IMG/VR virus record: IMGVR_UViG_3300034108_001291
Coordinates: 1 to 23,738 of that record
DNA: 23,738 nt
From: a virus
Strand: one strand, 5' to 3'
The position numbers and the translations under genes are program-made. Shown here one piece after another: positions 1,600 to 23,269 of this stretch. The stretch's first letter is position 1; the number at the start of each line of letters is the position of its first letter. The notes under the pieces were generated by a model. That model did no database searches. It saw nothing but the letters and a program-made list of their open reading frames with translations, and had not been told where the DNA came from.

Positions 1600-2415
1600 A
1601 TGAAAACGTTATTAATTACATTATTATTCATTCCAACAATTATGTTAGGACAGGTTTCATCTTGGAGAAGTAATCCTCCGCAACCACAAAGAACGGAAAC
1701 CCCTAGAGTTCAACCAACAAGCCCACAAAGAAATGATGTGAGTAGATGGAGAACACAAACAGAACCAATTAGACCTGACCAACCTGTTCCACAACAACCA
1801 TTGGTTAGAAGATGGAGAAGTAATGTAGCAAACCCATATGGTTACTATTGGGGAAATTGGGGTTGGTATCAACCGTTTCCTTACATTTGGTATGACGATT
1901 TTGGATGGAGACAAAGAAGTGTAGTTAGAATATACGAAAACGGTAAAAGAGATACAATTAGAAAAGAAACAGTTTACACATCTTTTGGTATTGGACACAC
2001 AAATAATAAACAAGCATCTTTTTGGGGTGCGGTAGGTGGTAAAAAAAGTTATTTTATTTTAGATTATACAATGTCATATGATATTGATCAAAATCAATAT
2101 TATCCATACGGTAGAATTAATGAGGTAGATTTCACACTAAGTAAAAATGATTTTATTAAACAAGGAACTTTATATCTTGGCGGAGGTAAAAGATTTGGTA
2201 AGTTAGGTGTTCATGGTATGATTGGATTTGGTAATGAGAATATTAGATATCAAGGTAGAGACGATCTTGGTGGTATATCATTTCCAAAATCAAATTCAAA
2301 TTTTACAACATTTAAAATTGGTATTATTAGAGATTTCAAATTTTTTACAATAAAATTAGATAGAGATCCAATAAGAAATTATAACCAAATAAGTGTTGGT
2401 TTCCATAACAAGTAA
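1600..2415 (+). CDS. Exported W/P/Q-rich protein with beta-barrel-like C-terminus
   Basis: The 271-residue protein starts with a Sec signal peptide ending in MLGQ (about residue 18), a form common in Bacteroidota. Residues 20-80 are rich in Pro, Gln and Arg and carry three spaced copies of a W-R-[ST] motif (SWRSN, RWRTQ, RWRSN). Residues 80-105 are very rich in Trp, Tyr and Gly. From about 125 onward, alternating aromatic/polar strands with Gly turns (for example GTLYLGGGKRF and KLGVHGMIGFG) look like outer-membrane beta strands, ending in QISVGFHNK. I do not recognise the family. Its stop codon overlaps the next start by one base (TAATG), so the two are probably co-translated. It is likely delivered to the outer membrane of the infected cell; the function is unknown. 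Confidence 0.7.
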   Translation: MKTLLITLLFIPTIMLGQVSSWRSNPPQPQRTETPRVQPTSPQRNDVSRWRTQTEPIRPDQPVPQQPLVRRWRSNVANPYGYYWGNWGWYQPFPYIWYDDFGWRQRSVVRIYENGKRDTIRKETVYTSFGIGHTNNKQASFWGAVGGKKSYFILDYTMSYDIDQNQYYPYGRINEVDFTLSKNDFIKQGTLYLGGGKRFGKLGVHGMIGFGNENIRYQGRDDLGGISFPKSNSNFTTFKIGIIRDFKFFTIKLDRDPIRNYNQISVGFHNK

Positions 2416-3815
2416 TGAAAAAAATATTATTTTTTATTTTTATTTTTATTTCAATAAGATCATTTGGTCAAACATATACACAAACATTCATTGATAAATG
2501 TAGTGGGGAAAAAAAGGTTGCCACAACAACAATGATGAATGGTTATGCAACAGTATCATTTTATAATCAAGTAAGGACATTTTCACCATTAGAGGTTCAA
2601 TCAGGGGTTGTACAAGCTTGGTTATTAACAACTAAAACCACATATGAAGCGATTACATGCCCAGTAATAAACAACCCTGTTGTACAACAAGCAGTAACAA
2701 ACGCTGCGGCACAAACGGCAGCAAATGCAGCATCAGCGGCAGCTAGTAGTGCGGCTTCTACGGCCGCCAGTAGTTCAGCAAGTTCTGCAGCAAGTAGTTC
2801 TGCAAGTAGTGCTGCAGCAAGTTCAGCGGCATCAACACCACCACCTGTGACACCACCGCCAGCTAGTAGTGGTTCAACACCACCACCAGCTAGTAGTTCC
2901 TCTTCATCAAGTGGTTCATCATCTTCTAGTTCATCATCCTCATCAGAATCTAAAACAGAAACAAAAACAGAGGCTAAAACAGAATCTAAGTCTGAAAGTA
3001 AAAGTGAGTCCAAATCAGAAAGTAAAAGTGAGGAAAAAAAGGAAGAGTCAAAATCAGAATCTAAGGAAGAAAAGAAAGAAGAATCTAAATCAGAAGAAAA
3101 GAAAGAGGAAGAAAAAAAGGAGGAAAAAAAAGAAGAGAAGAAAAAAGAAAAGGCTGTTGCATCAAACCCTATGTTGTTATCTTCTGATTTGTCTGTTATT
3201 GAATCACCAGATGGTAGATGGTTACAATCGGCAACAGTTGGGGTATCAAAATCTTCATTAATGGGTGATGAAAGCTATTCTGCCAACGCGGTAATCATGA
3301 GTGATCTAAAAACGTTTATTGTTAGTGGAGGATATACTAAAATGGATTTTTCTAGTGGTAAGTTAAAAGCAATACATTCATATTCGACAGCCTTTGCATA
3401 TCTAAATGGTGTATACATGAATTTGATGGGGTATACATACATTAAGCCAACAACAAAATATGGCGTGTTTGGATATAACGTTGGTTTAATAAATTTACTT
3501 ATTAAGAACTCTACAGGTGGTTATGATCATAATATGTCATCATCTGTTGTTGGATTTTGGACAAAGCCATATCAATACAATAAAAAATTAAGTATTTCAC
3601 CACAGGTGTTTACTATGTTTGCACCATTATCTTGGAATAGTGTTACTGGTGGATCAACAGTAAACAGAAGTGTTGGGTTTTTATTAGGTTCTTCTTTTGA
3701 TTATAAAATAACAAAAAGATTTGGATTTACAATAAACTATAAATTAAGCGGTAATACATCAGCAGGATCGCCATTTTTAAGTAACTTTTTAATTGGGTCA
3801 AGGATGATTTTATAA
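2415..3815 (+). CDS. Exported protein with Ala/Ser and Glu/Lys/Ser tracts and barrel-like C-terminus
   Basis: This 466-residue protein has a Sec signal peptide ending in SFGQ (about residue 19). A compact region (20-85) holds two cysteines (C29, C82). Then follow an Ala/Ser tract (about 93-140), a Pro/Ser stretch (141-178) and a long Ser/Glu/Lys tract (178-246). The C-terminal 215 residues are rich in Gly, Ser and aromatic residues in alternating patterns, such as AVIMSDLKTFIVSGGYTKM, and end in NFLIGSRMIL, resembling an outer-membrane barrel. The tract architecture suggests a flexible spacer between two folded parts. It overlaps the preceding exported-protein gene by one base and is followed by a terminator. 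The low-complexity DNA makes several open frames on the other strand, which are shadows. I recognise no family. Confidence 0.7.
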   Translation: MKKILFFIFIFISIRSFGQTYTQTFIDKCSGEKKVATTTMMNGYATVSFYNQVRTFSPLEVQSGVVQAWLLTTKTTYEAITCPVINNPVVQQAVTNAAAQTAANAASAAASSAASTAASSSASSAASSSASSAAASSAASTPPPVTPPPASSGSTPPPASSSSSSSGSSSSSSSSSSESKTETKTEAKTESKSESKSESKSESKSEEKKEESKSESKEEKKEESKSEEKKEEEKKEEKKEEKKKEKAVASNPMLLSSDLSVIESPDGRWLQSATVGVSKSSLMGDESYSANAVIMSDLKTFIVSGGYTKMDFSSGKLKAIHSYSTAFAYLNGVYMNLMGYTYIKPTTKYGVFGYNVGLINLLIKNSTGGYDHNMSSSVVGFWTKPYQYNKKLSISPQVFTMFAPLSWNSVTGGSTVNRSVGFLLGSSFDYKITKRFGFTINYKLSGNTSAGSPFLSNFLIGSRMIL

Positions 3816-3900: not shown

Positions 3901-4254
3901 TTATTTTTTATTTTTTGTCAAGCTTTTATACAAACTTATTATTTCAGAACATTTTTCATAATCTTCTATATCTTCAAAATATTGGATTACATGATCAATA
4001 AGAATATCGGGATCTTTTTTAGATAATTGAAATTCTGTTTTCCAGTCCATTATCTCACCTTTACTCAATAATAAACTAGCATTAACAACAAATTTAATTT
4101 CTTTTTTTCTTGTTGTTATTAAATGTTTAAACGAATCAACAACACCGCCATAAATTAATGGTTTGTTTTTATCTAAAAAATCTTCAAAAGATTTGTATTT
4201 TCCAGTTACATGAACATCCAGTGTTTCTGGTTCGTTGGCGTTAGTTGTTCTCAT
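3901..4254 (-). CDS. Unknown protein downstream of RNA ligase
   Basis: I chose the ATG at 4254 (MRTTNANEP, 117 residues). It overlaps the ligase end by 14 bases, whereas the upstream ATG at 4320 would overlap it by 80 bases and adds residues that read like a shadow of the ligase frame. The protein has no signal peptide or membrane helix. The visible core is GKYKSFEDFLDKNKPLIYGGVVDSF, shown here only by its ends (SFEDFL, YGGVVDS), followed by KEIKFVVNASLLLSKG and an acidic helix HVIQYFEDIEDYEK near the C-terminus. I recognise no family. Its position as last gene after ligase and kinase suggests that it belongs to the same minus-strand operon, but this does not fix a function. Confidence 0.65.
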   Translation of the reverse strand: MRTTNANEPETLDVHVTGKYKSFEDFLDKNKPLIYGGVVDSFKHLITTRKKEIKFVVNASLLLSKGEIMDWKTEFQLSKKDPDILIDHVIQYFEDIEDYEKCSEIISLYKSLTKNKK

Positions 4255-5434
4255 TTTTAAATGGTTTTGAGTATGTTGGGTATAATAATTTCCAAATAGT
4301 TTGTTTAGGGTTTGTTCCATCTAACATGTTAAATAAAATGTTAGAGTGTCTATATTGTTTTGCTCTTAAAGCAAAGTCTTTTCTACTTAAATTTCGATTA
4401 TTTAAATTTTCAAATATTTCTCTATAATCTTTTTCTATATTTTCAAATCTTACTGTTAAATCGCGAGCGGTTTCTTTTACCCAATTATTAAATTCGTCGG
4501 GTACCTTTTCGAGCAGCTCATCAAATGGTTTATTGTCTTTCAAGTATTCCCAAATATCTCTATTTGATATATTTGTTAAAATGCGGTGAAGTCTAATATA
4601 TTCTTCACCTTTTATTTTCATTCGAAAACCATTCTTAAATCGGATCACATACCCTTCTTTATCGTTACTGATTTCTTCTTTAAGTAAATCATATCCTTCT
4701 CCCCAAGTTTTATATAGGGTAACAACTTTAATGTTTAAATTTTTTATTAGATTTTTTAATCTAATATCTTCATTATTATCGTTGTGTATATTAACCTCAT
4801 CACCGGTTTTGGTGTGGATCATACCAAGTAAAATTAAATCTTCAAAATCATAGTTACAAACTATTCTGTTTTCTGGATAAATAATTTCAAATAAATAGGT
4901 ATAATCTTTGGCCAACCTATTGTAATCATATTTTTCCAATAATTCTCTTCCTTTGATTGCTTGTGTTGATGTAAATGAACCGCGTGTAGCCAATATCCAC
5001 TCACCTTTTGTTTTTGGTGTTGGGTCATAATAAGTGTTATCAAAATCAGGTAAATTCTTTGGATCAAAGAATCTTTCCATTCCGGTTTCATAATTATTAT
5101 TAAACCATATGTTATATCTTCTTTCATCAGTTAATTCTTCTTCATAATAAAAAAGAATACCTAATGAACCATCCATTTTTTCATATACCTCAAAATTTTC
5201 ATTTGGTAAATCCTCAGGTTTATGTTCCTCATAATTGAAAAATTTCTTGAATGGTCTTGCAACAATTTCACCTTTAGTGTTTGTAACTAACCCACGACAT
5301 TGTATAGTAATATCATCCCATAGTCTCTCATATTGAACTCTTGGGGAATAATTCCAAATAGTTAAATCAAGAGTCGGGTGAGTTTGTTTATGTAACAAAC
5401 CATCTTTGTAATATTTTTCTAATGTGTTTAACAC
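4241..5434 (-). CDS. rnlA: RNA ligase, T4 Rnl1-type
   Basis: The 397-residue product carries the nucleotidyltransferase motifs of ATP-dependent RNA ligases. Motif I is EKMDGS with the AMP-accepting Lys86. RGS is at 151-153, motif III-like YLFEIIYPENR is at 180-190 with Glu183, motif IV KEGYVIRF is at 259-266, and motif V MKIKGEEY is at 272-279. The N-terminal CRGLV and RPFKKFFNYEE segments match the Rnl1 layout, and the length is close to T4 Rnl1 (374). Such enzymes rejoin RNA ends, in T4 to repair tRNA cut by host anticodon nucleases. The kinase gene just upstream provides the matching end-processing partner. The frame as given starts with GTG at 5434; an ATG at 5501 abuts the kinase stop but is one frame off (see findings), so the true N-terminus is uncertain. 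Confidence 0.92.
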   Translation of the reverse strand: MLNTLEKYYKDGLLHKQTHPTLDLTIWNYSPRVQYERLWDDITIQCRGLVTNTKGEIVARPFKKFFNYEEHKPEDLPNENFEVYEKMDGSLGILFYYEEELTDERRYNIWFNNNYETGMERFFDPKNLPDFDNTYYDPTPKTKGEWILATRGSFTSTQAIKGRELLEKYDYNRLAKDYTYLFEIIYPENRIVCNYDFEDLILLGMIHTKTGDEVNIHNDNNEDIRLKNLIKNLNIKVVTLYKTWGEGYDLLKEEISNDKEGYVIRFKNGFRMKIKGEEYIRLHRILTNISNRDIWEYLKDNKPFDELLEKVPDEFNNWVKETARDLTVRFENIEKDYREIFENLNNRNLSRKDFALRAKQYRHSNILFNMLDGTNPKQTIWKLLYPTYSKPFKNENN

Positions 5435-5446
5435 AGTATTTGAAGA

Positions 5447-5457
5447 GGGGTTTTTTT
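5447..5457 (-). other. A7C4 homopolymer junction, possible frameshift or indel at RNA ligase start
   Basis: On the minus strand, seven A are followed by four C. An ATG at 5501, directly after the kinase stop (TAAATG), opens a frame (MSKFIESFTKSVNPPKK) that would join the ligase frame if one base were skipped or absent here. Confidence 0.5.
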
Positions 5458-5501
5458 GGTGGATTTACTGACTTGGTAAAAGATTCAATAAACTTACTCA
5501 T

Positions 5502-5924
5502 TTACAATTTGATTTGAAACCTATTTTCCATTTGCTTGAGTTTGTCTTCGGGGACATTATGTACGTTTTTACTATCATGCCTGTTTTCAACAATTAAAGT
5601 GTGAATTCGATATTTGTATCTTTCTGCCATTTCAAAATACGGTTCCATTTCCCACTCTTCAGTAAAAGTATTGGCAATAACAATTTTTGAAAATTCTAGT
5701 TTCATTCTATCTGCGCATATTTGTTGACAATTAATATGTGCCTCCTTAAGTTTACTACCATCAAAGTGGTAAACACCCTTATCATCAGTAAAATAATTGT
5801 CTGCAGAAATAATATCTGGTTTAGTTCCCTGATTTGAATGAAGTATTACTTCAGCCAATGTCGTTTTACCGGCACCTGGCAATCCTCTTAGTAATATCAC
5901 ATCGCCGATCCATTCTTTTTCCAT
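5502..5924 (-). CDS. Small P-loop kinase (AAA_33 / polynucleotide-kinase-like)
   Basis: The 140-residue protein is a single P-loop kinase domain. Walker A is GLPGAGKTT at 14-22 (Lys20). SADNYF at 40-45 and the segment IANTFTEEWEMEPY at 83-96 match the kinase family that includes T4 polynucleotide kinase and N4BP2-like proteins. HNVPEDKLKQMENRF near the C-terminus looks like the lid. In T4 Pnkp a 3'-phosphatase domain follows; it is absent here, so only 5'-phosphorylation of RNA or DNA would be expected. The gene starts one base after the stop of a small membrane-protein gene and sits directly before the RNA ligase, which supports an RNA end-repair role. A zeta-toxin-like or other small-molecule kinase is the alternative. 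Confidence 0.8.
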   Translation of the reverse strand: MEKEWIGDVILLRGLPGAGKTTLAEVILHSNQGTKPDIISADNYFTDDKGVYHFDGSKLKEAHINCQQICADRMKLEFSKIVIANTFTEEWEMEPYFEMAERYKYRIHTLIVENRHDSKNVHNVPEDKLKQMENRFQIKL

Positions 5925-6930: not shown

Positions 6931-8949
6931 TTATATAATCTTCGTTTTTATCAATAATTTTTCTTTAAATGTTATTTTTATGGGTGTATTTTCTTTGATA
7001 TTACCCTTTAAAATTTCATCACTGAGAAAATCTTCACAAAGAGATTGAATAATTCTTTTGATTGGTCTGGCTCCATACTGTTCATCTTTGTTTCTTTTAG
7101 CAATTTCACTCATAACACTAGCATCGAAGGTGATAAAATATTTTTTCTCATTTAAACGATCTATTAAACGATCCATTTCAAGTTTTATAATCTTCTTAAT
7201 TGCTTCTTCACCTAATGGATTAAATAAAACTATATCGTCAATTCTGTTCAAGAACTCAGGATTGAATTGTTGCTTAAGCGATTTCTGTATAATTGTTTTT
7301 TTAACCTCATATTGTTGATTTTCACTACTACTAGTATTAAACCCAACACCACTACCAAATTCAGATACTTTTTTAGCACCAATATTAGATGTCATAATGA
7401 TCAATGTATTTGTGAAGTTTACTTTCCTACCAAAGGCGTCAGTTAAATGACCTTCGTCCAGTATTTGTAATAATAAATTAAACACATCCTTGTGTGCCTT
7501 TTCTATCTCATCAAATAAAATAACAGAAAACGGATTATTCTTAATTTTTTCTGTTAATTGACCACCTTCTTCATAACCAACATAACCTGGAGGCGACCCA
7601 ATTAATCTAGATACCGTGTGTTTTTCCATGTACTCACTCATATCAACACGAATAACATTATCTTCTGATCCAAAAATTAATTTAGATAATGTTTTTGCTA
7701 GATATGTTTTACCAACACCGGTAGAACCAAGAAATATAAAAGAACCAATTGGTTTTTTACTATCTTTAATTCCAACTCTGTTTCTTCTAATTGATTTAGA
7801 TATTGTACTAATAGCTTCGTCTTGCCCAATAACCCTTTCTGATAATTTAACTTCTAAATTTATTAAATTAGAAACCTCATTACTATCCATTTTCGAAATT
7901 GGAATACCAACCATACTCGATACCATATCATAAACATCATCAACACTAACTGGTATCAACGAATCGTTTTGTTTAGCTAACCATTTAGCTTTTTCCTCAT
8001 CTAATTTTTTGATGACCTTTTTTTCTTCATCTCTTAGTTTTGCAGCTTCTTCATAAACTTGTTTTTTAACAACTTCATGCTTCTTTTCTTTAATTGTTTC
8101 TATTTCTTTTTTTAATTTCTCAATTATTTCAGGAGCCTTTGTTACAACACGTTTTTCTGAACCTAGCTCATCTAAAACATCAATAGCTTTATCTGGAAAT
8201 TGTTTATCTGTCATAAACCTTCCTGATAATCTTACTATTGTTTCAACAACCTCATCACCATATGATACTTTATGAAATCCCTCATATGATTTTTTTAAGT
8301 TTTTTAAAATCTCAACCGTTTCATCTTCAGTTGGTTCTTTTAAAATAATTTTTTGAAATCTTCTTACTAATGCGCCGTCCTTTTCAATGTGTTTTTTAAA
8401 TTCATCAAATGTTGTTGCGCCAATACACTGCATTTCACCTCTTGCTAATGCTGGTTTTAAAATATTAGCAGCATCCATTGAGCCAGATGCATTTCCGGCA
8501 CCAACCATTGTGTGTATTTCATCAATAAAAACAATAACATCAGGGTTTTCTTGTAGCTCATGTAAAATTGCTTTAATTCTCTCTTCAAATTGGCCTCGAT
8601 ATTTTGTACCCGCGACCAATGAAGTTAAGTCAAGTGATAGTAATCTTTTATCAATTAGATTAGATGGGCAATCTCCCTTAGATATCATTAATGCTAATTT
8701 TTCAACTAATGCAGATTTACCAACACCAGCATCACCAACAATAATCACATTATTTTTTTTCTTTCTTGAAATGATTTGCGCAATTCTTTTAACTTCTTTA
8801 TCCCTACCAACAACCGGATCAATTTTATCTTCTTCTGCTAACTTAATTAAGTCTCTAGAAAAATTGTCTAAGATTGGTGTGTTTGAATTAACTCTTTTGT
8901 TTTTAGGGTTAGTTCTGGGGTTTTCTTCATAACCAAATTCTACTGCCAT
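6931..8949 (-). CDS. clpC-like: ClpC-like AAA+ protein unfoldase lacking the N-domain
   Basis: The 672-residue protein has two AAA+ modules. The first has Walker A GDAGVGKS (72-79), Walker B VIVFIDE (138-144) and arginines R196/R197. The second has Walker A GSTGVGKT (408-415), Walker B VILFDE (476-481), sensor-1 region TSN (520-522), arginine finger R569 and sensor-2 GAR (626-628). Between them, residues 295-316 resemble the UVR-type helix of ClpC. The usual N-terminal Clp repeat domain is missing; only about 25 residues precede the first module. A VGF tripeptide at 535-537 sits where ClpA/ClpC carry the loop that docks to ClpP, so it may use host ClpP. Family members unfold proteins with ATP. 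A TTTG-N20-TATGTTTG host-type promoter lies upstream, and hsp20 diverges from it. Confidence 0.93.
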   Translation of the reverse strand: MAVEFGYEENPRTNPKNKRVNSNTPILDNFSRDLIKLAEEDKIDPVVGRDKEVKRIAQIISRKKKNNVIIVGDAGVGKSALVEKLALMISKGDCPSNLIDKRLLSLDLTSLVAGTKYRGQFEERIKAILHELQENPDVIVFIDEIHTMVGAGNASGSMDAANILKPALARGEMQCIGATTFDEFKKHIEKDGALVRRFQKIILKEPTEDETVEILKNLKKSYEGFHKVSYGDEVVETIVRLSGRFMTDKQFPDKAIDVLDELGSEKRVVTKAPEIIEKLKKEIETIKEKKHEVVKKQVYEEAAKLRDEEKKVIKKLDEEKAKWLAKQNDSLIPVSVDDVYDMVSSMVGIPISKMDSNEVSNLINLEVKLSERVIGQDEAISTISKSIRRNRVGIKDSKKPIGSFIFLGSTGVGKTYLAKTLSKLIFGSEDNVIRVDMSEYMEKHTVSRLIGSPPGYVGYEEGGQLTEKIKNNPFSVILFDEIEKAHKDVFNLLLQILDEGHLTDAFGRKVNFTNTLIIMTSNIGAKKVSEFGSGVGFNTSSSENQQYEVKKTIIQKSLKQQFNPEFLNRIDDIVLFNPLGEEAIKKIIKLEMDRLIDRLNEKKYFITFDASVMSEIAKRNKDEQYGARPIKRIIQSLCEDFLSDEILKGNIKENTPIKITFKEKLLIKTKII

Positions 8950-8971
8950 ATACTATCTTTTAAGTTTAACA

Positions 8972-9003
8972 CAAACATACGTAAAAAAAGTTAAAAAAAC
9001 AAA
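8972..9003 (-). promoter_or_regulatory. Bacteroidota-type promoter for the unfoldase gene
   Basis: On the minus strand TTTG (9003-9000) is followed after 20 bases by TATGTTTG (8979-8972), matching the TTTG / TAnnTTTG pattern known for Bacteroidota primary sigma factor promoters. The expected start lies about 15-20 bases before the ATG at 8949. Confidence 0.65.
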
Positions 9004-9012
9004 ATATGGTTC

Positions 9013-9067
9013 AGACAAAATGTCTAAAAAAATGTCTAACGAATGTCTAAATGTCAGCTTTAGACAT
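9013..9067. promoter_or_regulatory. Repeat array ATGTCTAA in the unfoldase/hsp20 divergent region
   Basis: ATGTCTAA occurs at 9020, 9032 and 9043 (spacings 12 and 11 bases), with a partial copy at 9051 and an inverted copy TTAGACAT at 9060-9067. CAGACA at 9012-9017 is a further inverted partial. Spacing near one helical turn on one face suggests a cooperative protein-binding site between two divergent chaperone genes. Confidence 0.6.
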
Positions 9068-9074
9068 TTGGTTC

Positions 9075-9090
9075 ACAATTTGTAAATTGT
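9075..9090. repeat. Short inverted repeat before hsp20
   Basis: ACAATTT and AAATTGT are separated by GT. The site lies 20 bases before the hsp20 ATG and could be an operator; it is too AT-rich and has too short a loop for a terminator. Confidence 0.45.
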
Positions 9091-9109
9091 AAAAATAAAA
9101 TAAAACTAT

Positions 9110-9478
9110 ATGATTACATTATTTAAAGATCCGTTCTTTGATGCGTTTGATAAAGTATTAGATGCATCTCGCTACAATGTTAGCCCACAAACTAATATTC
9201 ACAAAACAGAAAGTGAATATAAAATCTCAATGTCAATACCTGGTTTAACTAAGGATGACTTAAAGATTACCATAAAAGAAGGTGTTTTAAAAATCTCTTT
9301 TGAAAAGGATGAGAAGAATGAAAGAACACATTTCATTGGTAATTTTATAAAATCTTATACAATACCTGATGATGTTAAAGAAAAAGACATTGTGGGTAAT
9401 GTTGAGAATGGTGTGTTGGTATTAACACTACCAATCGATAAAAAGAAGTCAATTGAGAGACTTATTTCTCTTAATTAA
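9110..9478 (+). CDS. hsp20: Hsp20 / alpha-crystallin small heat shock protein
   Basis: The 122-residue protein is essentially one alpha-crystallin domain (about 30-112). Typical parts are YKISMSIPGLTKDDLKI (37-53), the segment EGVLKISFEKD (57-67), and the signature NGVLVLTLP (100-108). The N-terminal arm is short (about 28 residues) and the usual C-terminal I-x-I anchor is not evident. Family members hold unfolding proteins without ATP and hand them to ATP-driven chaperones; similar proteins are known in cyanophages and other T4-like phages. The gene diverges from a Clp-type unfoldase across a repeat-rich control region, so the two may be co-regulated and act on the same clients, for example capsid or host proteins. 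A terminator follows directly. Confidence 0.93.
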   Translation: MITLFKDPFFDAFDKVLDASRYNVSPQTNIHKTESEYKISMSIPGLTKDDLKITIKEGVLKISFEKDEKNERTHFIGNFIKSYTIPDDVKEKDIVGNVENGVLVLTLPIDKKKSIERLISLN

Positions 9479-14378: not shown

Positions 14379-16163
14379 ATGAGTCAAAAAATAGAACAAT
14401 TAAAGGAGTATGCTCGTATAATAAAAGATACTCCATACGCACTTAAAACATATCTCCAAACCTTTGATAATACACAGAGAAAGTTTGTGCCATTAGAGTT
14501 GTTTCCTGATCAAATACAATTATTAAAAGATTACGAAACATATAATGAGAACATCACAAGAAAATATCGTCAAGCTGGTGTAACAACAGTAACGGCCGCA
14601 TGGTTATCAAAAAAATTACAATTAGCAAAACCAGAAAATCCAGAAAGGGTTTTGATTATCGCAAACAAACGTGATACCGCAATTGAGATGGCGAATAAAG
14701 TTCGTCACTTTTTAGATCAATGGCCAGAATGGATAAATGTTGGGTTTTCACCAGATAAAAATTCAGAAAGTAGATTTAGATTAAATAACGGATCTGAGGT
14801 AAAGGCTGTGGCCACATCTGCGGATGCTCTTCGTGGTTTTACACCAACAATATTAGTATTTGATGAGGCAGCATATATTGAGGCTGGAGATGACTTCTGG
14901 GCGGCTTCTATGGCCTCGTTATCAACCGGTGGTAAGATTATATTAATATCAACACCAAATGGCTACGATCCAATTTATTATGGTGTTTATGAACAAGCAA
15001 TTAGGGGTATTAATGATTTTCACATCACTGATTTAAGATGGTTTAAAGATCCTAGATATACTAAAGATTTGGTTTGGATTAAAGTTCCAGATATTGTACA
15101 TTATATGTTAAATAGAGAACAATATAATGATGATGAGGTTATTTTAAAAGAATTCGACATAACAAAATACAAAGAATTAATGGATAATGGGTATCAACCT
15201 TATTCATCTTGGTTTGAGTCAATGTCCAAAAAATTCAAATATGATAAGAGAAAAATTTCTCAAGAACTTGAATGTGATTTCTTAGGATCTGGTGATAGCG
15301 TAATACCAACCGAGACAATGGAAAAGATTGCTAAAACCATGATTAAACAACCAAAAGAAAAATATATGCAAGGATTGCTTTGGCAATGGAAAGAACCTGT
15401 TCAGGGGCATAGGTATATTATGGGAGTTGATGTTAGTAGAGGTGATAGTGAGGATTTTTCATCAATCAATATTATTGATTTCGATGAAAGAGAGCAAGTT
15501 GTTGAATATGTTGGTAAAATGCCACCAGATGATTTAGCGTCTGTTGCTTATAAATGGGGTATATTATATGATGCGTTTATTGTAATCGATATCACAGGTG
15601 GTATGGGTGTTGCAACATCAAGAAAATTGCAAGAAATGAATTATAAGAACTTATTCATTGATGGTATTAATACCAAGAATGTTTGGGAATATAATGCAAA
15701 AGCAATGGAAAAAATACCTGGAATTAATTTTAATAATAAAAGAACACAAATTGTTTCAGCATTTGAAGAACAACTCAGACATGATTTTATTGTTAGATCT
15801 AATAGGCTTTTAAATGAACTAAACACTTTTGTTTATATAAATGGTAGACCAGATCACATGAAAGGACAACATGATGATTCAATCATGAGTTTAGCTATTG
15901 CTTTGTATGCTGGAGAAATATCATTTACACAATTAGTTAGAAACGAACAACAGAATAAGGCTATGCTAGATTCTTGGGTTATGTCAGAAAGAACATATCA
16001 GTCACCACAAACAGAAAATTATTCATATGGAACTAGTTTCGATCAGGTTGGTATGATGCAAATTGATAGCTCACCATACGCAAAGAGTAGTTCTAACGGT
16101 ATACCAGCGAAAGAACAGTACAATCAATATTCCTGGTTATTCGGAACTAATAAAAAGGCTTGA
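14379..16163 (+). CDS. 17: Terminase large subunit (T4 gp17-type)
   Basis: I chose ATG 14379 (MSQKIEQLKEYAR, 594 residues), because the longer TTG start at 14352 lies within the upstream terminator. The ATPase domain has the motor signature YRQAGVTT (63-70) in place of a classical G-K-T/S Walker A, Walker B ILVFDE (158-163) and the coupling motif STPNG (191-195). The nuclease domain has GVDVSRGDSEDF with Asp351, FIVID with Asp404, and HDDS with Asp499/500, matching the acidic triad of gp17. It cuts concatemeric DNA and pumps it through the portal into the prohead. The portal gene follows after 48 bases. The T4 tail sheath and tube genes that lie between gp17 and gp20 are absent here. Confidence 0.96.
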   Translation: MSQKIEQLKEYARIIKDTPYALKTYLQTFDNTQRKFVPLELFPDQIQLLKDYETYNENITRKYRQAGVTTVTAAWLSKKLQLAKPENPERVLIIANKRDTAIEMANKVRHFLDQWPEWINVGFSPDKNSESRFRLNNGSEVKAVATSADALRGFTPTILVFDEAAYIEAGDDFWAASMASLSTGGKIILISTPNGYDPIYYGVYEQAIRGINDFHITDLRWFKDPRYTKDLVWIKVPDIVHYMLNREQYNDDEVILKEFDITKYKELMDNGYQPYSSWFESMSKKFKYDKRKISQELECDFLGSGDSVIPTETMEKIAKTMIKQPKEKYMQGLLWQWKEPVQGHRYIMGVDVSRGDSEDFSSINIIDFDEREQVVEYVGKMPPDDLASVAYKWGILYDAFIVIDITGGMGVATSRKLQEMNYKNLFIDGINTKNVWEYNAKAMEKIPGINFNNKRTQIVSAFEEQLRHDFIVRSNRLLNELNTFVYINGRPDHMKGQHDDSIMSLAIALYAGEISFTQLVRNEQQNKAMLDSWVMSERTYQSPQTENYSYGTSFDQVGMMQIDSSPYAKSSSNGIPAKEQYNQYSWLFGTNKKA

Positions 16164-16199: not shown

Positions 16200-16207
16200 T
16201 ATTTATA
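16200..16207 (+). promoter_or_regulatory. Late-promoter-like motif TATTTATA before portal
   Basis: The octamer lies four bases before the portal ATG at 16212, in the only gap between terminase and portal. Confidence 0.5.
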
Positions 16208-16211
16208 TAGT

Positions 16212-18017
16212 ATGGCGAATCAAGATTTGACAGTTTTTCAGAAATTAACTAAGATATTTGGCTTCCAGAATAAGGGAGAACAAAGTCCTCCGTCTTTTAA
16301 TTTTTCAAGAGAAGAGTTATTAAAGACCGATGATCCCGTTGAATTTGAAAAAGCTAGGTTACAAGCACAACAGTCTCAATATCTTTTTGATAAGTGGGCA
16401 AAATTAGATAATTCATTATATAACCAATCAGTATATTATGAACCAAATAGACTATCAGCATATTATGATTATGAGTCTATGGAGTTTACACCTGAGGTGT
16501 CAGCAGCATTGGACATTTATGCGGAAGAATCTACAACGGTTTCTGAAAAGGGATATATTTTAAATGTATATTCCGAATCAAAAAGAGTAAAGAACGTTTT
16601 AATAGATCTATTTGAAAATAGATTAGATATAAACACTAACCTACAAATGTGGGCTAGAAATGTGTGTAAGTATGGTGACAACTTTGTTTATTTAAAGAGT
16701 GATCCAGAAAGAGGTATTGTTGGTTGTCAACAATTACCTAATATTGAAATTGAAAGACTTGAAGGTGCACAATCAAGAACACCAAACTCTGGTGATCTAA
16801 AATCCCCAATTCGCGAATTGAGATTCCAATGGAAAAATAAGGATATGGAATTTCAGTCTTGGGAACTTGCACATTTTAGATTATTGGGTGATGATAGAAA
16901 GTTACCATATGGTACTTCTATGTTAGATAAGATTAGAAGAATTTGGAAACAACTTTTACTTGCTGAAGATGCCATGTTAATTTATAGAACATCAAGGGCT
17001 CCAGAAAGACGTGTATTCAAGATTTTTGTTGGTAATATGGATGATAAGGATATTGAACCATATGTACAACGTGTTGCAAACAAATTTAAAAGAGATCAGG
17101 TAGTAGATAGTAGAAATGGTCAAGTAGACATGAGATACAATCAAATGGCTGTTGATCAAGATTATTTTATTCCTGTTCGTGATCCTGCGGCCCCAAGTCC
17201 AATTGAAACATTAGCCGGTGCGCAAAACTTAGGTGAGATTGCGGATATTGAATATATTCAAAAGAAATTATTGGCAGCACTTCGTATTCCTAAGGCGTTC
17301 TTAGGGTTTGAAGAGGTTGTTGGTGACGGTAAGAATCTTGCTTTAATGGATATTCGTTTTGCAAGAACAATCAATAGAATTCAAAAATCTTTAATACAAG
17401 AATTAAATAAAATCGCTTTAATTCACTTATATCTTTTAGGATTAGAGGATGAATTAGAAAACTTTACATTAGGTTTAACAAACCCTTCTTCACAAGCAGA
17501 TTTATTAAAAATTGAGCAGTGGAAAGAAAAGGTTACATTATATAAAGATGCAACTTCAGATCAATCTCAAGTGGGTATATTACCAGTATCACATACGTGG
17601 GCTAAAAAGAATATTCTTGGTATGAGTGATAATGAAGTGTTGTTAGATTTACAACAACAACGTCTTGAAAGAGCTATGGGAGCTGAATTACAAAATACAG
17701 CACAGATCATTAAAAGGTCTGGTGTGTTTGATGAGGTTGATAGTAAGTATGGTATTCCGGAAGAAGAAAGAGCGGAAATTGAAGCACAAGCGAACGCTGA
17801 CGGTGATGAAGGTGCATTGGGCGGAGGTATGCCACCTAGTCCATCATCAGAACCACCTGGAGAGGCTTCTGAACCATTAAGTGAAAGAAAAAAGTTTAGT
17901 AAAATCAGAAGTGTTTTAGGGGAATCACAAGAAAATAATGATTTATTTAATCTTGAAAAGGCACAGAAGAATATTTATGAAATAGAAAATAAATTGAACG
18001 ACATTATAAACGATTAA
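16212..18017 (+). CDS. 20: Portal vertex protein (T4 gp20-type)
   Basis: The 601-residue protein (T4 gp20 is 524) has the gp20 layout: LSAYYDYESMEFTPEVSAALDIYAEE (in part DYESMEFTPEV) near 75-105, then KYGDNFVYLK, SWELAHFRL, a segment with PYGTSMLDKIRRIWKQLLLAEDAMLIYR (key part MLDKIRRIW), and APERRVFKIFVGN. These are hallmark portal segments that precede the stem and clip. The C-terminal 100 residues are Glu/Gln/Pro-rich and include LSERK at 556-560, a possible prohead-protease site. It forms the ring through which DNA enters and the tail attaches. It follows the terminase and is followed two bases later by the core-protein candidate, in the T4 order apart from missing tail genes. Confidence 0.95.
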   Translation: MANQDLTVFQKLTKIFGFQNKGEQSPPSFNFSREELLKTDDPVEFEKARLQAQQSQYLFDKWAKLDNSLYNQSVYYEPNRLSAYYDYESMEFTPEVSAALDIYAEESTTVSEKGYILNVYSESKRVKNVLIDLFENRLDINTNLQMWARNVCKYGDNFVYLKSDPERGIVGCQQLPNIEIERLEGAQSRTPNSGDLKSPIRELRFQWKNKDMEFQSWELAHFRLLGDDRKLPYGTSMLDKIRRIWKQLLLAEDAMLIYRTSRAPERRVFKIFVGNMDDKDIEPYVQRVANKFKRDQVVDSRNGQVDMRYNQMAVDQDYFIPVRDPAAPSPIETLAGAQNLGEIADIEYIQKKLLAALRIPKAFLGFEEVVGDGKNLALMDIRFARTINRIQKSLIQELNKIALIHLYLLGLEDELENFTLGLTNPSSQADLLKIEQWKEKVTLYKDATSDQSQVGILPVSHTWAKKNILGMSDNEVLLDLQQQRLERAMGAELQNTAQIIKRSGVFDEVDSKYGIPEEERAEIEAQANADGDEGALGGGMPPSPSSEPPGEASEPLSERKKFSKIRSVLGESQENNDLFNLEKAQKNIYEIENKLNDIIND

Positions 18018-18019
18018 AA

Positions 18020-18763
18020 ATGAACAGAATTGGGATTATAAAGAGCAAACTCTTAAAAAAACTAACAGAATCATATGGTTCTAACAATAAATCTGAAATG
18101 AAAAACATTTTAAAATCTGTTGTTGAGAATAAGGAGTTCAAGGAGATGTATCTTTTCTACGAGGAAATTGAAAATAAATATTTTGAAGATAAGGAAATAG
18201 CTAAATTATATGTTGAAGGTATTGATACCGAAATGGTAAAACAACAAGTTAAAAATTTAAAAACATTCTGTGAATCACTAGATAAGAAGTTAGGGGATAT
18301 TGAGGTGACAACAAATGAAATATATGAGGCTTTAGATCAATTGGGATCTGAAGATTCGTTATCAAACCTTGAAAAGAAAATTGTGGCAAAAAAGAGACTA
18401 ATTGAACATTTAACAACTAAAAAATCAGTAGAAAACATCTCTGAGAGTAAAACTTACACAGCAAATGAAAATTTGTTACATGCAGTATTGGTAAATAATT
18501 TCAATAATCTATACGAAAATACATTATCTAAAGAAGATAAAGAGGCACTTAAGAATATTTTGGATATAAACGGTGAAGAGTTATTAACTAAAACATCTGA
18601 ACTAAAAGAAACAATTCTTTCTAAAGTTACAAATATTTTATCAGAATCTAAAGATGCTGATTTGGAAACAAAACTTAAATCAGTTAGAAATGAGGTTAAT
18701 TCGATGACTCCATCAAAATACAATTATTACAGATTAACACAACTTAAAAATGGTCTTGATTAA
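18020..18763 (+). CDS. Helical prohead-core candidate downstream of portal
   Basis: The 247-residue protein is Lys/Glu/Leu-rich and almost entirely helical by eye, with long heptad-like stretches (VKQQVKNLKTFCESLDKKL around 73-91; LSNLEKKIVAKKRLIEHL around 114-131). In T4, small core proteins (gp67, gp68) follow the portal at this place, so a core or scaffold role fits. It carries a basic N-terminal peptide with LTE-S at 15-18, plus ISESK at 140-144 and LSESK at 207-211, all candidate sites for the gp21-type protease. The ATG lies two bases after the portal stop. Its own stop overlaps the stop of the convergent bS21 gene inside a two-way terminator. Homology to gp67/68 was not seen; the call rests on position and composition. 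Confidence 0.7.
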   Translation: MNRIGIIKSKLLKKLTESYGSNNKSEMKNILKSVVENKEFKEMYLFYEEIENKYFEDKEIAKLYVEGIDTEMVKQQVKNLKTFCESLDKKLGDIEVTTNEIYEALDQLGSEDSLSNLEKKIVAKKRLIEHLTTKKSVENISESKTYTANENLLHAVLVNNFNNLYENTLSKEDKEALKNILDINGEELLTKTSELKETILSKVTNILSESKDADLETKLKSVRNEVNSMTPSKYNYYRLTQLKNGLD

Positions 18764-18779
18764 ATCAGACCATTTTTTA
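18746..18779. terminator. Bidirectional terminator spanning both stop codons
   Basis: AAAAATGGTCT and AGACCATTTTTT pair around TGATTAAATC, with T runs on both strands. The stem holds the stop codons of the core-protein candidate (plus) and bS21 (minus), which overlap in TTAA. Confidence 0.85.
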
Positions 18780-18951
18780 ATTTTTCCACATAAACGGCTT
18801 TTAATACTTCAGCACGTTTTTTAACAGAGGGTTTTGTAAACGATTGTCTTTCTCTTAGATTTTGAATCTGTTTAGTTTTTTGTACCTTACTTTTGTAAGT
18901 TTTAAGAGCAGACTCAATGCTCTTTTCTTTTTTCATATCAATTATAATCAT
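18760..18951 (-). CDS. rpsU: Ribosomal protein bS21
   Basis: The 63-residue protein matches small-subunit protein bS21, especially the Bacteroidota form. An initial II-I segment leads to KSIESALKTYKSKVQKTKQI, then the hallmark NLRERQSFTKPSVKKRAEVLKA (key part RERQSFTKPSVKKR), and a short C-terminus. bS21 sits by the 3' end of 16S rRNA and the mRNA exit channel; in Flavobacteria it helps to hide the anti-Shine-Dalgarno tail, as is known for that group. Viral bS21 genes have been reported in other phages. Here it is the only minus-strand gene in the head module, has a TATTTATA motif just upstream (18963-18956 on the minus strand), and no Shine-Dalgarno site. It would replace or supplement host bS21 to favour phage mRNAs. 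Confidence 0.9.
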   Translation of the reverse strand: MIIIDMKKEKSIESALKTYKSKVQKTKQIQNLRERQSFTKPSVKKRAEVLKAVYVEKLKNGLI

Positions 18952-18955
18952 ATAT

Positions 18956-18963
18956 TATAAATA
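18956..18963 (-). promoter_or_regulatory. Late-promoter-like motif TATTTATA, minus strand, before bS21
   Basis: Read on the minus strand, the octamer lies four bases before the bS21 ATG at 18951. Its presence on the strand of the only reversed gene supports a strand-specific role. An imperfect repeat GGAAT...ATTCC lies upstream at 18981-19000. Confidence 0.55.
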
Positions 18964-19050
18964 TTTTCATTTAATCTTTTGGAATATTAAAAAAAATTCC
19001 TTATTTTATATCTTATCACCATAATATAATTAAAATTATGAAAAAAATTA

Positions 19051-19479
19051 ATGAAAATCGGAAAATATATTCCATTAGGCGATCACAAAGATGTAAAAGT
19101 TGGCTATGGAACAGTAGATTTTAAAAATCTTAAAACAGTTTATGTAAAAATGAATGCATGGGTAGAACCCAATAATGAAAATGAAGACTTTAACAAAACA
19201 ATCTCTAAAGCAAGAAAAAAAATGAAAGACTTTATTAGAGAGTATAATTTAGGTGAAAATTTCAAAAAAGAAAGTATTGTTGATTTAGATATTAGGACAA
19301 AAGGGATAAAGATGAATAAAAGATCATTTATGAATTTAGAAATCACATTATTCGTAGATAAATTTTTTGATGTTAAGTCTAATTTAGTTAAAAACTTACT
19401 TAAAACCTTCACTCACGAGTCAATAGATAGTTGTTTAGCGGATAAAACATTATTCAATTTTAATAAAACTAAGATTTGA
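19051..19479 (+). CDS. Unknown protein between bS21 and prohead protease
   Basis: The 142-residue protein has a beta-rich N-terminus (KIGKYIPLGDHKDVKVGYGTVDF, in part DHKDVKVGYG; then TVYVKMNAWVEP), a charged helix (SKARKKMKDFIREY at about 51-64), a strand pair (SIVDLDIRTKGIKM; LEITLFVDKFFDV), and a final helix. No signal peptide or known catalytic motif is visible. A nearby ATG at 19038 is out of frame and gives only a short peptide. Position next to gp21 suggests a head-assembly role, but no homology was recognised. It diverges from bS21 across about 100 bases of AT-rich sequence. Confidence 0.65.
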   Translation: MKIGKYIPLGDHKDVKVGYGTVDFKNLKTVYVKMNAWVEPNNENEDFNKTISKARKKMKDFIREYNLGENFKKESIVDLDIRTKGIKMNKRSFMNLEITLFVDKFFDVKSNLVKNLLKTFTHESIDSCLADKTLFNFNKTKI

Positions 19480-19493
19480 TTCTATTATCCTTG

Positions 19494-19501
19494 TATTTAT
19501 A
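19494..19501 (+). promoter_or_regulatory. Late-promoter-like motif TATTTATA before protease gene
   Basis: The octamer lies 20 bases before the protease ATG and overlaps by one base the start of a perfect 20-base palindrome (19501-19520). Confidence 0.55.
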
Positions 19502-19521: not shown

Positions 19522-20211
19522 ATGAAAATATTAGGACCTAACGACTCTGGAAGAGGACTACTGATTGAATATGACGCAGGTCACATATCTCCAGAAGAAT
19601 TAAAAAACAAAAATATAATAACAGAAATACAGAATAAGGATACCGACCAGGATCTTATTCTGTATGCTGTTTTACAAAAATACGATACCCCAAATAAGAA
19701 CGGTAGGATTTATCCTGAGATGTTACTTAAAAGGGAAAATGAAAAGTATCAACAAATAATGAGCAAGGGTTCCGCCCTTAATGAGCTCAATCATCCGTCA
19801 TCATCACTTATTGATTTAGATAGAGTTTCCCATACAATCACCGAAACGTGGTGGGATGGTAAAACTTTAATGGGTAAAATAAAAATATTAACATCTCCAG
19901 GTTGGAAAAAAATGGGGATTGTTAGTTGTAAAGGTGATCAAGCAGCCATGCTACTTCTAAATGGCGTTACATTAGGTATATCTTCAAGAGGTGTTGGATC
20001 ATTAAAACAAATAAAGGGACAAAACATTGTACAAGATGATTTTGAATTAGTTTGTTTTGATTTGGTATCATCACCATCAACACCAGGTGCTTACGTTTTT
20101 CAAGACATTGCGGATAAAGATAAATTTAACGAAACCGTTGAAGAAAAGTCTACTATGGATGATAGAATGAAGAAATTAATGGGTAATCTTGATACTTTTC
20201 TTAAACGATAA
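19522..20211 (+). CDS. 21: Prohead core protease (T4 gp21-type)
   Basis: The 229-residue protein matches the T4 gp21 family of serine proteases with the herpesvirus-protease-like fold. The His is His91 in ELNHPSS (88-94). The Ser is S154 or S155 in LGISSRGVGS (151-160), and a central PNKNGRIYPEMLL (58-69) is family-typical. Near the end, FELVCFDLVSSPSTPGAYVF (174-193, key part DLVSSPSTPGA) is the conserved C-terminal motif. It is assembled in the prohead and cleaves scaffold, capsid and internal proteins after I/L-x-E. Candidate sites in this window fit that rule. A TATTTATA motif and a perfect palindrome precede the start, and the scaffold gene follows after 91 bases. Confidence 0.95.
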   Translation: MKILGPNDSGRGLLIEYDAGHISPEELKNKNIITEIQNKDTDQDLILYAVLQKYDTPNKNGRIYPEMLLKRENEKYQQIMSKGSALNELNHPSSSLIDLDRVSHTITETWWDGKTLMGKIKILTSPGWKKMGIVSCKGDQAAMLLLNGVTLGISSRGVGSLKQIKGQNIVQDDFELVCFDLVSSPSTPGAYVFQDIADKDKFNETVEEKSTMDDRMKKLMGNLDTFLKR

Positions 20212-20274: not shown

Positions 20275-20282
20275 TATTTATA
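20275..20282 (+). promoter_or_regulatory. Late-promoter-like motif TATTTATA before scaffold gene
   Basis: The octamer lies 20 bases before the scaffold ATG at 20303, matching the spacing at the protease gene. Confidence 0.55.
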
Positions 20283-20302: not shown

Positions 20303-21502
20303 ATGAGCGAAAAATCGATTTTAGAACAAGCACTACTTCAAGTAAATACACTTGAAGAAGCAGTAAAGCAAAATGCAAAAGGTATACTTTCTTCAGTAAT
20401 GAAGCAAGAACTAAACGAATTGCTTAAAGAATCAGAAGAAGAGGAAGAAGTAGCAGATAATGCTATGGATCCTAAAGTAGAGGAAAACGACATGTCAGAG
20501 CAGCCAGATTCAGATGATGAAGAAGCTGATGATGAAGATGAAATGCCCTCGATAAATGATGAACCATCAAAAGATATCGATGGTGAAGACGAAGAAGATG
20601 AAGACGATATGTTTTCAACTGACGACGAATCACCTGAAATGGAAGACGATGAGTTACCATCTATGGATGATATGGCATCAGATGATGACGATACATTAGA
20701 CATGACAGGAGCTCCAGATGAGGAGGTTCTAAAGGTGTTTAAAGCAATGTCAGATGAAGATGGTATTATTGTTAAAAAAGACGGTAATAATATTGAACTT
20801 ACAGATGCTGATGATGAGTACATTATTAAGTTAGACGAATCAGAAGAAGAGGAAGAAGAAATGTCTGAAGACTGGACTGAAGAGGAAGCTAGCGATGATG
20901 TTGCAGATGACGAAACCATCTATGAAATTGAGTTAGATGATGAACCAGAAGACGAAACTGAAATGTCTGAAGAAGATATGCCAGCTGAAGAAGAGGTTGA
21001 TGAAGCTGCTCGTACTAAGTGGAACGTACATGGTGGTAAAAGATCTGGTTTAAAAAGTAAAAAAGTTTTTGCAGCTGGTGCTAAAAATGAATCTAAAGCA
21101 TCAACAAATGCAATTAACGAAGAAGTAGAAAATCTTAAAAAACAAAACAGCGAATATAAAAAAGCGTTGATTATGTTTAAAGATAAACTAAATGAAGTTG
21201 CTGTATTTAACGCAAATCTTGCTTATGCAACTAGATTATTCACTGAACATTCAACAACAAAACAAGAGAAATTGAATATTTTGAAGAAATTTGATTCAAT
21301 TTCAAATATAAAAGAATCTAAAAATCTTTACAATACTATTAAATCAGAATTAGATACTAAAAAACCAGTAACTGAATCTATAGTTAATAAGATTGTTAAT
21401 ACCGCATCAACATCTTCTTCTCAAGAAGTTTTATCTGAGTCAAAAGCTTATGAAGCACCTCAATTTAAGAGAATGAGAGATTTGATGAGTAAAATAAAAT
21501 AA
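20303..21502 (+). CDS. 22: Prohead scaffolding core protein (T4 gp22-like)
   Basis: The 399-residue protein has a helical N-terminus (1-48), then a very acidic and low-complexity region (about 49-235) with runs of Glu/Asp and repeated DDE/DEE motifs. A basic patch follows (KWNVHGGKRSGLKSKK, about 242-257), then a helical C-terminal domain with coiled-coil character (EEVENLKKQNSEYKKALIMFK). Between protease and capsid genes, and with this acidic/helical make-up, it fits gp22, although the sequence itself is too simple for a firm homology claim by eye. Two motifs stand out: LLKE-S at the acidic boundary and LSESK near 377-381. Cleavage there would help clear the core before packaging. Reverse-strand Ser-rich frames over this gene are shadows. 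Confidence 0.87.
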   Translation: MSEKSILEQALLQVNTLEEAVKQNAKGILSSVMKQELNELLKESEEEEEVADNAMDPKVEENDMSEQPDSDDEEADDEDEMPSINDEPSKDIDGEDEEDEDDMFSTDDESPEMEDDELPSMDDMASDDDDTLDMTGAPDEEVLKVFKAMSDEDGIIVKKDGNNIELTDADDEYIIKLDESEEEEEEMSEDWTEEEASDDVADDETIYEIELDDEPEDETEMSEEDMPAEEEVDEAARTKWNVHGGKRSGLKSKKVFAAGAKNESKASTNAINEEVENLKKQNSEYKKALIMFKDKLNEVAVFNANLAYATRLFTEHSTTKQEKLNILKKFDSISNIKESKNLYNTIKSELDTKKPVTESIVNKIVNTASTSSSQEVLSESKAYEAPQFKRMRDLMSKIK

Positions 21503-21535: not shown

Positions 21536-23269
21536 ATGGGAGCATTATTAGAATCAGGTATGGTAGGTAACATCGGTCTTAAGCACCTTCGTGTTATCAA
21601 AGAAGATACCATCAAAAAATGGGATGACTTAGGCTTTTTAGAAGGTCTTGACGGTCACCAAAAAGATAACATCGCGCAATTGTATGAAAACCAAGCGTCT
21701 TATTTAATCAACGAAGCAGCAGTTTCTGATGCTAGTGGTTCATTCGAGACAGTGGTATTCCCAATTATCCGCCGTGTATTCTCTAAATTATTAGCAAACG
21801 ATATCGTTTCTGTACAAGCAATGAACTTACCAATTGGTAAATTGTTCTACTTCGTACCTAAAATTCAAGAAAGACAATCAAACTTACACAAATCACCTTA
21901 TGGTATGCCAGGCAATAGCGACGCATCTACTTTAGGTTATGAAACTGGTACAACAGATCCAAGAAGCTTGTATGATCGTTTTTACGAAGCAAATGATGCA
22001 GCTGATGCTGGTATCTATGATTACTCTAAAGGAGCGTTCTCTGCTGTAACTTTAACAGGTTCTTCAGTTGTAACTTTCTCTAACGGAGCAACTACAGATG
22101 TAGCTAACGCTGATTTAACTGGTGATACAGTTTCTGATATCATTGTTAAATTCACAGGATTTGCAAAAGATGGTCAAGGTAAATTGATCGGGCCAAATGG
22201 TTCTGTAATGGATACTGAAGAATTCTTAGCTTCTGCTGTAGTTAACTACGCAGGTGCAGCAAGAAACTTTAACATTGTTACACAAAAGTATGGTAAAGGT
22301 ATTGTTGAATATGGTCAAAAATCAACTTCAGCAACATATCCTTCAGGAAGATACCAAGATATTTGTGACGAAGAAGGTACAATTTACGTAAAAGTAGATT
22401 TACAATCTTACAGCGCAACTTCAGGTTTCTCTGACTTTACTATTCCTTCAGGTTTCACTTCAAGTGCAGTATCATTAGTTTTCAGAGTTTATGATACATT
22501 AGAATTTGAAGATCAAATTGGTGAAGTATCGTTTGATTTAGCTTCAGTAACAGTTTCTGTAACTGAAAGAAAATTAAGAGCTAGCTGGTCTCCAGAATTA
22601 GCACAAGACGTTTCTGCTTTCCATAACATCGATGCTGAAGCTGAATTAACAGCTTTATTATCTGAGCAAATCGCTGCTGAGGTTGACCGTGAAATTTTAC
22701 GTGACCTTAGAAAAGGTGCTGCTTGGACTGCTAAGTGGGATTATAATGAGTGGAAATATGGTGCAACTGGAAACACTCCGTTCATGGGTTACACTCAAAA
22801 GGATTGGAACCAAACATTGGTGACTAAAATCAACCAATTGTCAGCTCAAATCCATAAGACTACATTAAGAGGTGGTGCAAACTGGATCGTTGTTTCTTCA
22901 GAAGTATCTGCAGTATTCGATGATTTAGAATATTTCCACGTATCTAATGCTGGTCCAGAGCAAGATCAGTACAACATGGGTATCGAGAAAGTAGGTACAC
23001 TTGCTGGACGTTATCAAGTATACCGTGATCCATACTTACCAGCAGGTAAGATCCTTGTAGGTCACAAAGGTAAGTCACTATTAGACGCAGGTTATATCTA
23101 CGCTCCATATGTGCCGTTACAGTTAACTCCAACAATGTACAATCCATTTAACATGACACCGATTAAAGGTATCATGACACGTTACGCAAAGAAAATGGTA
23201 AACAACCGTTACTTCGCTGTAATCAACGTAAGTGGTTTACAAACGTTCGATATGAATACTTTAAGATAA
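21536..23269 (+). CDS. 23: Major capsid protein (T4 gp23-type)
   Basis: The 577-residue protein matches gp23. The segment FPIIRRVFSKLLANDIVSVQAM (key part RRVFSKLLANDIVSVQ, 79-94) and the core ERKLRASWSPELAQDVSAFHNIDAEAEL (key part KLRASWSPELAQD, 346-358) are characteristic. LINE-AAV at 57-63 aligns with the known T4 cleavage site (LTE-AEI) and predicts a mature start at Ala61. A large Gly/Ser/Thr-rich insert (about 165-340) separates conserved parts and may form an outer surface domain. Codons with C in third place (ATC, AAC, TTC, CGT) are more common than in neighbours, which suggests selection for high expression. It forms the HK97-like hexamer lattice of the head. A terminator follows at 23291. 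Confidence 0.96.
   Translation: MGALLESGMVGNIGLKHLRVIKEDTIKKWDDLGFLEGLDGHQKDNIAQLYENQASYLINEAAVSDASGSFETVVFPIIRRVFSKLLANDIVSVQAMNLPIGKLFYFVPKIQERQSNLHKSPYGMPGNSDASTLGYETGTTDPRSLYDRFYEANDAADAGIYDYSKGAFSAVTLTGSSVVTFSNGATTDVANADLTGDTVSDIIVKFTGFAKDGQGKLIGPNGSVMDTEEFLASAVVNYAGAARNFNIVTQKYGKGIVEYGQKSTSATYPSGRYQDICDEEGTIYVKVDLQSYSATSGFSDFTIPSGFTSSAVSLVFRVYDTLEFEDQIGEVSFDLASVTVSVTERKLRASWSPELAQDVSAFHNIDAEAELTALLSEQIAAEVDREILRDLRKGAAWTAKWDYNEWKYGATGNTPFMGYTQKDWNQTLVTKINQLSAQIHKTTLRGGANWIVVSSEVSAVFDDLEYFHVSNAGPEQDQYNMGIEKVGTLAGRYQVYRDPYLPAGKILVGHKGKSLLDAGYIYAPYVPLQLTPTMYNPFNMTPIKGIMTRYAKKMVNNRYFAVINVSGLQTFDMNTLR

Follow-up and report, generated by a model that had tools for sequence, protein, structure and literature searches.

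The window analysed here (the whole stretch of 23,738 nt) carries on its minus strand a real phage gene for the ribosomal protein bS21, correctly located, conserved and of a known kind, and the best explanation of the data as a whole, which we hold with moderate confidence, is that in this lineage of T4-type phages of Bacteroidota a late-made phage bS21 replaces the host bS21. The identity of the gene, the purifying selection that acts on it, its genomic context, a hairpin with co-varying arms, an enriched motif with a preferred spacing and the absence of a Shine-Dalgarno (SD) site can be read directly from the window and its relatives. Late ribosome substitution as such is prior art (PMC6375957, PMC9723584; discussed in PMC9976891). 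To the study of Chen et al. 2022 (PMC9723584), in which this hypothesis was already proposed, our analysis adds the hairpin-coded C-termini of two convergent genes, the octamer with its fixed spacing and the prediction of leaderless mRNAs, the contrast between the SD-less leaders of phage bS21 and the strong SD sites of the sampled host rpsU leaders, and the apparent loss of bS21 in one relative. bS21 is by far the commonest ribosomal protein encoded by phages and a candidate for the making of specialised ribosomes by viruses.

The bS21 gene (18760..18951, minus strand) runs from an ATG to a TAA and encodes 63 aa, including Tyr54. Its assignment to the Bacteroidota-type bS21, proposed in the preliminary description, is borne out by matches that all fall inside this family: Pfam PF01165 (44.5 bits, 1.3e-11, cut-off 27, near-full domain length), NCBIfam TIGR00030 (33.9 bits, curated cut-off 28.95) and, as the closest solved structure in a PDB search, F. 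johnsoniae bS21 (7jil_z, E 5.9e-13); a comparison of the locus with known RNA families gave no match. The median pairwise dN/dS across relatives is 0.12, and the reading frame is therefore regarded as a gene under purifying selection; a chance ORF is excluded by the profile matches, the dN/dS and the conservation. We also rejected Met6 as the start, because the M[IL]I start is conserved, as is the distance of 12 nt between Met1 and the upstream octamer. According to the alignment and residue tables, host and phage proteins share residues including KPSV, R46, A52 and Tyr54, and the platform residues are retained. Residues 21, 23, 24, 26 and 28 of helix 1 are unlike those of the hosts, and V23, Q24, T26 and Q28 make up a consistent phage-versus-host difference across phages, which suggests that helix 1 of the phage protein differs near the mRNA path and may make altered contacts there. 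Chen et al. 2022 (PMC9723584) likewise reported conservation of Tyr54 (or another aromatic residue) and divergence at residues 21, 23, 25 and 28.

The gene lies in a T4-type head module, in which the large terminase TerL (14379..16163, plus strand) and the T4-type portal protein (16212..18017, plus) are followed by a convergent gene with no assigned function (18020..18763, plus), the reversed bS21, a divergent gene with no assigned function (19051..19479, plus) in the slot of T4 gp68, the S77 prohead protease (19522..20211, plus), an acidic gene placed in the scaffold slot by position and composition only (20303..21502, plus) and the gp23-type major capsid protein (21536..23269, plus). TerL, portal, protease and capsid are supported by family matches, and profile searches returned no family match for the two genes flanking bS21 or for the scaffold-like gene. 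The TerL ORF was listed from TTG 14352; the octamer spacing favours ATG 14379 as the true start. The ORF listing confirms that bS21 is the sole minus-strand gene from portal to capsid in the window. The word "antisense" that had been applied to it is loose, since it shares with the neighbouring gene no more than the 4 nt where their stop codons overlap (18760-18763). The label of "core protein" given earlier to a neighbour is based only on position (the T4 gp67/gp68 slot), neither flanking gene having a family match, and we rejected the gene at 19051 as T4 gp68, given a negative hhalign profile test and no match in the phage collection. Among 160 IMG/VR loci fetched by bS21 or portal queries, bS21 is reversed in every locus that holds it and the same gene order recurs, while exactly one bS21 is present per record in 6/6 larger records. 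The same arrangement was described in 47 Bacteroidetes jumbo phage genomes (Chen et al. 2022, PMC9723584). Near the head module, the window also encodes a ClpA/ClpB-like AAA ATPase (minus) and an Hsp20 (plus) at 6931-9478, and Clp and Hsp20 were listed among the common bS21 neighbours in phages (PMC9723584). Elsewhere in the window, a T4-type RNA ligase 1 (PF09511) adjoins a small AAA_33 kinase-like gene (4241-5924, minus), and it is conceivable that the two form an RNA repair pair. A class 3 lipase-like protein (PF01764, 9.6e-28) is encoded at 56-799 (plus), and a protein with long low-complexity stretches, rich in serine/alanine or in Lys/Glu/Ser, at 2415-3815 (plus), where the opposite strand also has long ORFs.

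We placed 107 bS21 sequences in a tree, which is built from only 64 columns and hence has many unresolved inner forks; a branch with SH-aLRT support of 96 has on one side the phage copies, among which one of a 735-kb phage also falls. The phylogeny against host copies that had been called for thus sets the phage copies apart, but it does not agree with sequence identity on the nearest host type: the closest copies by identity (up to 63%) are Chitinophagales-type, whereas the tree places the phage clade with modest support beside F. johnsoniae-type copies, and we have dropped any assignment to a host order. One relative, L192, whose portal is 84.6% identical to that of the window, lacks bS21, and the two flanking genes are adjacent there (L192:8571-8680), the first of them retaining a hairpin whose T-run lies on the side of that gene. 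L192 nests with the window in a clade of 22 rows (support 99), and since the other rows with data have bS21, loss is the simplest reading; L192 seems to represent a natural empty site, albeit on a single contig in which an assembly fault is possible. Because L192 is without bS21, the gene is not essential to the lineage. In an isolate, Flavobacterium phage immuto (portal 37% identical), the module is comparable, but no bS21 is annotated in it.

The late-type motif that the preliminary description had attributed to bS21 is indeed present. The octamer TATTTATA occupies 18956..18963 on the minus strand (18963-18956), with its first base 12 nt ahead of the ATG of bS21, and the same 8-mer precedes TerL (11 nt from ATG 14379), portal (at 16200, 12 nt), the protease (at 19494), the scaffold-like gene (at 20275) and several smaller genes; the exact octamer is absent just upstream of the capsid gene. 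At 60 nt or less upstream of the start it is found in the sense orientation in 9/26 window genes and in the antisense orientation in none (shuffles 0.5), and the corresponding sense versus antisense counts are 42 vs 9 in a 251-kb relative (G001) and 24 vs 6 in a 151-kb one (G002). A family search with 20 octamer-bearing genes of G001 could name only a head-tail adaptor and, weakly, a virion structural protein, with no gene of DNA metabolism, and one with 10 control genes returned an exonuclease, SbcC, a radical SAM protein and a tail fibre, a sample too small for statistics. No -35 signal was seen upstream of the octamer, and a sigma-70 scan gave no excess over shuffles. The distances from the start of the octamer to the ATG show a sharp peak at 12 nt precisely (15 genes, vs a mean of 1.45 at neighbouring distances), and TATTTATA-N4-ATG occurs at 33 sites in five records vs 2 for the reversed control. 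In 64 distinct bS21 leaders, TA[C/T]TTA stands at 12-13 nt in 35 (vs 2% in shuffles) and the motif core is absent from the last 25 nt in 15.

The late promoter octamer of T4 is TATAAATA, and T4 late transcription starts about 12-13 nt from its first base. A start at such a distance would make the mRNAs of bS21, portal and TerL begin at or beside the AUG, and by this analogy we predict that bS21 and the other mRNAs with the 12-nt spacing have no leader or almost none. Where the octamer lies at a greater distance from the ATG, position +12, the start predicted from sequence, is occupied by A in 31/38 cases (p 0.006 against the A-rich background). A lack of leaders is described as frequent among phage transcripts (PMC5312081), whereas in F. 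johnsoniae 87% of predicted leaders are longer than 10 nt (PMC6847099). Other candidate signals for bS21 were discarded. A conserved CACCATAA lies ahead of the 19051 gene (19012-19050, plus), with TTTTGG further upstream; both persist in L192, where bS21 is gone, and therefore belong to the 19051 gene, and the CACCATAA element may represent a separate promoter class. A candidate TAnnTTTG host-type promoter for bS21, in the form TATATTTG, occurs in many relatives and is absent from the window.

As had been stated beforehand, the bS21 leader has no SD site: it pairs with the 16S tail at -1.8 kcal/mol. The mean is -0.9 kcal/mol in 80 phage bS21 copies vs -10.9 kcal/mol in 80 sampled host copies (mostly Chitinophagales, picked by similarity to the query), 85% of which are at or below -7 kcal/mol; SD sites are generally absent from phage genes, and the bS21 leader lacks the extended SD that marks autoregulated rpsU. 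In the hosts, rpsU is subject to SD-dependent autoregulation via bS21-less ribosomes, a context in which phage bS21 has been discussed (McNutt et al. 2023, PMC9976891), and in F. johnsoniae, SD-dependent translation goes up when Tyr54 is mutated (PMC9976891). Since its mRNA is without SD, the phage gene should escape feedback of this type; the escape foreseen in the preliminary description fits the lack of SD and the probable lack of a 5' leader, and we infer no more than that. The preliminary interpretation as a whole is partly supported, and a change of mRNA preference in the SD versus non-SD sense is weakened: the anti-SD-blocking Tyr54 is retained, so that ribosomes with the phage bS21 should still make no use of SD sites, which argues for continued masking of the anti-SD rather than a switch of the ribosomes to SD mRNAs.

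The scenario that we favour can be formulated as follows. bS21 would have a late-type promoter of its own, TATTTATA, from which it would be transcribed in the direction opposite to the head genes, the mRNA probably being leaderless. A single hairpin, which also encodes the C-terminal residues of both bS21 and the convergent protein, would halt transcription arriving from either side. The late-made phage bS21 would then compete for the bS21 site, with Tyr54 masking the anti-SD. The synthesis from its SD-less mRNA would not be limited when the ribosomes are full of bS21, whereas the host rpsU, whose long SD lets bS21-less ribosomes boost it, would be kept in its low state by ribosomes filled with the phage protein, and the host bS21 would become diluted as the phage form gradually takes over. 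We infer from this picture a late timing in the phage of the window, a transcription start at or near the AUG, incorporation into ribosomes, replacement of the host protein and a benefit to the phage; in favour of it, co-expression of bS21 with head genes late in infection was reported for related phages from lake metatranscriptomes (Chen et al. 2022, PMC9723584), and the bS21 of another phage, pelagiphage HTVC008M, enters E. coli ribosomes (Mizuno et al. 2019, PMC6375957). A takeover of the ribosome would be plausible. Against it stand the absence of bS21 from L192, that of the motif core from some bS21 leaders and that of the exact octamer from the capsid gene, as well as the outcome with the pelagiphage protein, the sole phage bS21 that has been tested, which left the E. 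coli ribosomes with about 5% activity on a GFP message (PMC6375957). The prospect that an SD-less, probably leaderless mRNA bypasses the SD-dependent host rpsU feedback makes the idea of specialised ribosomes testable.

A simpler scenario, less probable but worth keeping in mind, is one of supply only, in which the phage protein equals that of the host and tops up bS21 late, after host mRNA has decayed, with no selection among mRNAs. The retention of the core residues and Tyr54 and the exchangeable nature of bS21 (PMC6375957) agree with it, but the consistent departure of V23, Q24, T26 and Q28 from the hosts suggests altered contacts. We find it rather improbable that, on the contrary, the phage protein acts as a selector which directs initiation towards the late mRNAs of the phage, e.g. 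leaderless ones or those with very short leaders. Such a role would suit the phage-specific helix 1 and the 12-nt spike that predicts leaderless late mRNAs, as well as the finding that protein-depleted E. coli 61S ribosomes, without bS1, uS2 and bS21, selectively translate leaderless mRNAs (PMC4929434). Because of the latter, bS21 variants would be plausible modulators of leaderless initiation by analogy, but those particles miss several proteins and not bS21 alone. A fuller version, in which many late mRNAs (portal, TerL, bS21 and others) are approximately leaderless in contrast to most mRNAs of F. johnsoniae, and a bS21 altered next to the mRNA path remodels the 30S subunit to favour them, while it still masks the anti-SD and leaves the feedback on host rpsU switched off, appears to us similarly doubtful.

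The two-way terminator that had been postulated between bS21 and the convergent gene corresponds to an inverted repeat at 18741..18782 (arms 18741-18756 and 18767-18782), with T-runs on both sides and RNA folding z-scores of -3.9 and -3.6 on the two strands, and predicted to be a bidirectional terminator; the terminator scan did not report it, its 10-nt loop being above the limit of the tool. Both stop codons lie inside the repeat, where they overlap in TTAA (18760-18763). One arm encodes the KNGL of bS21 and the other the KNGL of the convergent protein (C-terminus LKNGLD), and in 125/142 relatives both proteins have KNGL-type ends. Synonymous third bases match between the arms, with AAT/AAC and GGT/GGA shifting on both sides, and GGT->GGA occurred in at least 4 separate lineages on the portal tree (L043/L256; L054-L063; L031; L045/L049), each time mirrored on the other arm. 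The co-variation rests on 10 distinct arm pairs, with the paired fraction and double changes equal to, and not above, the maximum of 1000 column shuffles, and a few relatives (L193, L205, L247) have one-sided changes. The 17 relatives without the KNGL pattern mostly have no strong hairpin and carry unrelated bS21 tails (EKSN, DENEQ, GPQD and others), and their convergent protein often still ends in LKNGL. Such a repeat is missing from 120/129 host rpsU genes, and the stem never exceeds 9 bp. Since synonymous changes in one arm are matched in the other in several lineages, the terminator probably dictates the phage-specific C-terminus of bS21, whose tail would mirror the neighbour's arm and be held by the terminator; template-switch homogenisation of the palindrome could also maintain the match. 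Retention by the terminator would be an alternative cause of the C-terminal conservation within clades, which Chen et al. tied to ribosome substitution, and their suggestion that KNGL is an adaptation of the protein, although in keeping with its retention within phage clades (PMC9723584) and the importance of the bS21 C-terminal region in F. johnsoniae (PMC9976891), is in our view the least probable of the alternatives, in the face of the mirrored GGT->GGA changes, the unrelated tails of the pattern-less relatives, the identical end of the neighbour and the scarcity of comparable repeats in hosts. The hairpin should therefore be taken as a warning against reading the phage bS21 C-terminus as a ribosome adaptation. 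A literature search on bidirectional terminators in phages, with all terms required together, retrieved no paper.

With respect to known systems, the putative promoters of the window resemble T4 late promoters in that head genes of a T4-type phage are preceded by an octamer of A and T and no -35 signal, but the octamer here is TATTTATA and is known from sequence alone. The host rpsU of Bacteroidota (PMC9976891) belongs to the same protein family and shares Tyr54, while the phage gene differs in the lack of SD, the probable lack of a leader, the distinct helix 1 and the C-terminus located in a terminator hairpin. The bS21 of pelagiphage HTVC008M (PMC6375957) is similarly phage-coded, but it is of alphaproteobacterial origin and host, and a protein other than the bS21 of the window. 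The closest counterparts are the bS21 jumbo phages of clades a-e (PMC9723584), whose report contains neither the word terminator nor promoter. They share with the window the reversed bS21 between two unknown genes in the TerL/portal/protease/capsid region, the Bacteroidetes-type bS21 with Tyr54 and its inferred late use, and from them the phage of the window shows no difference in kind.
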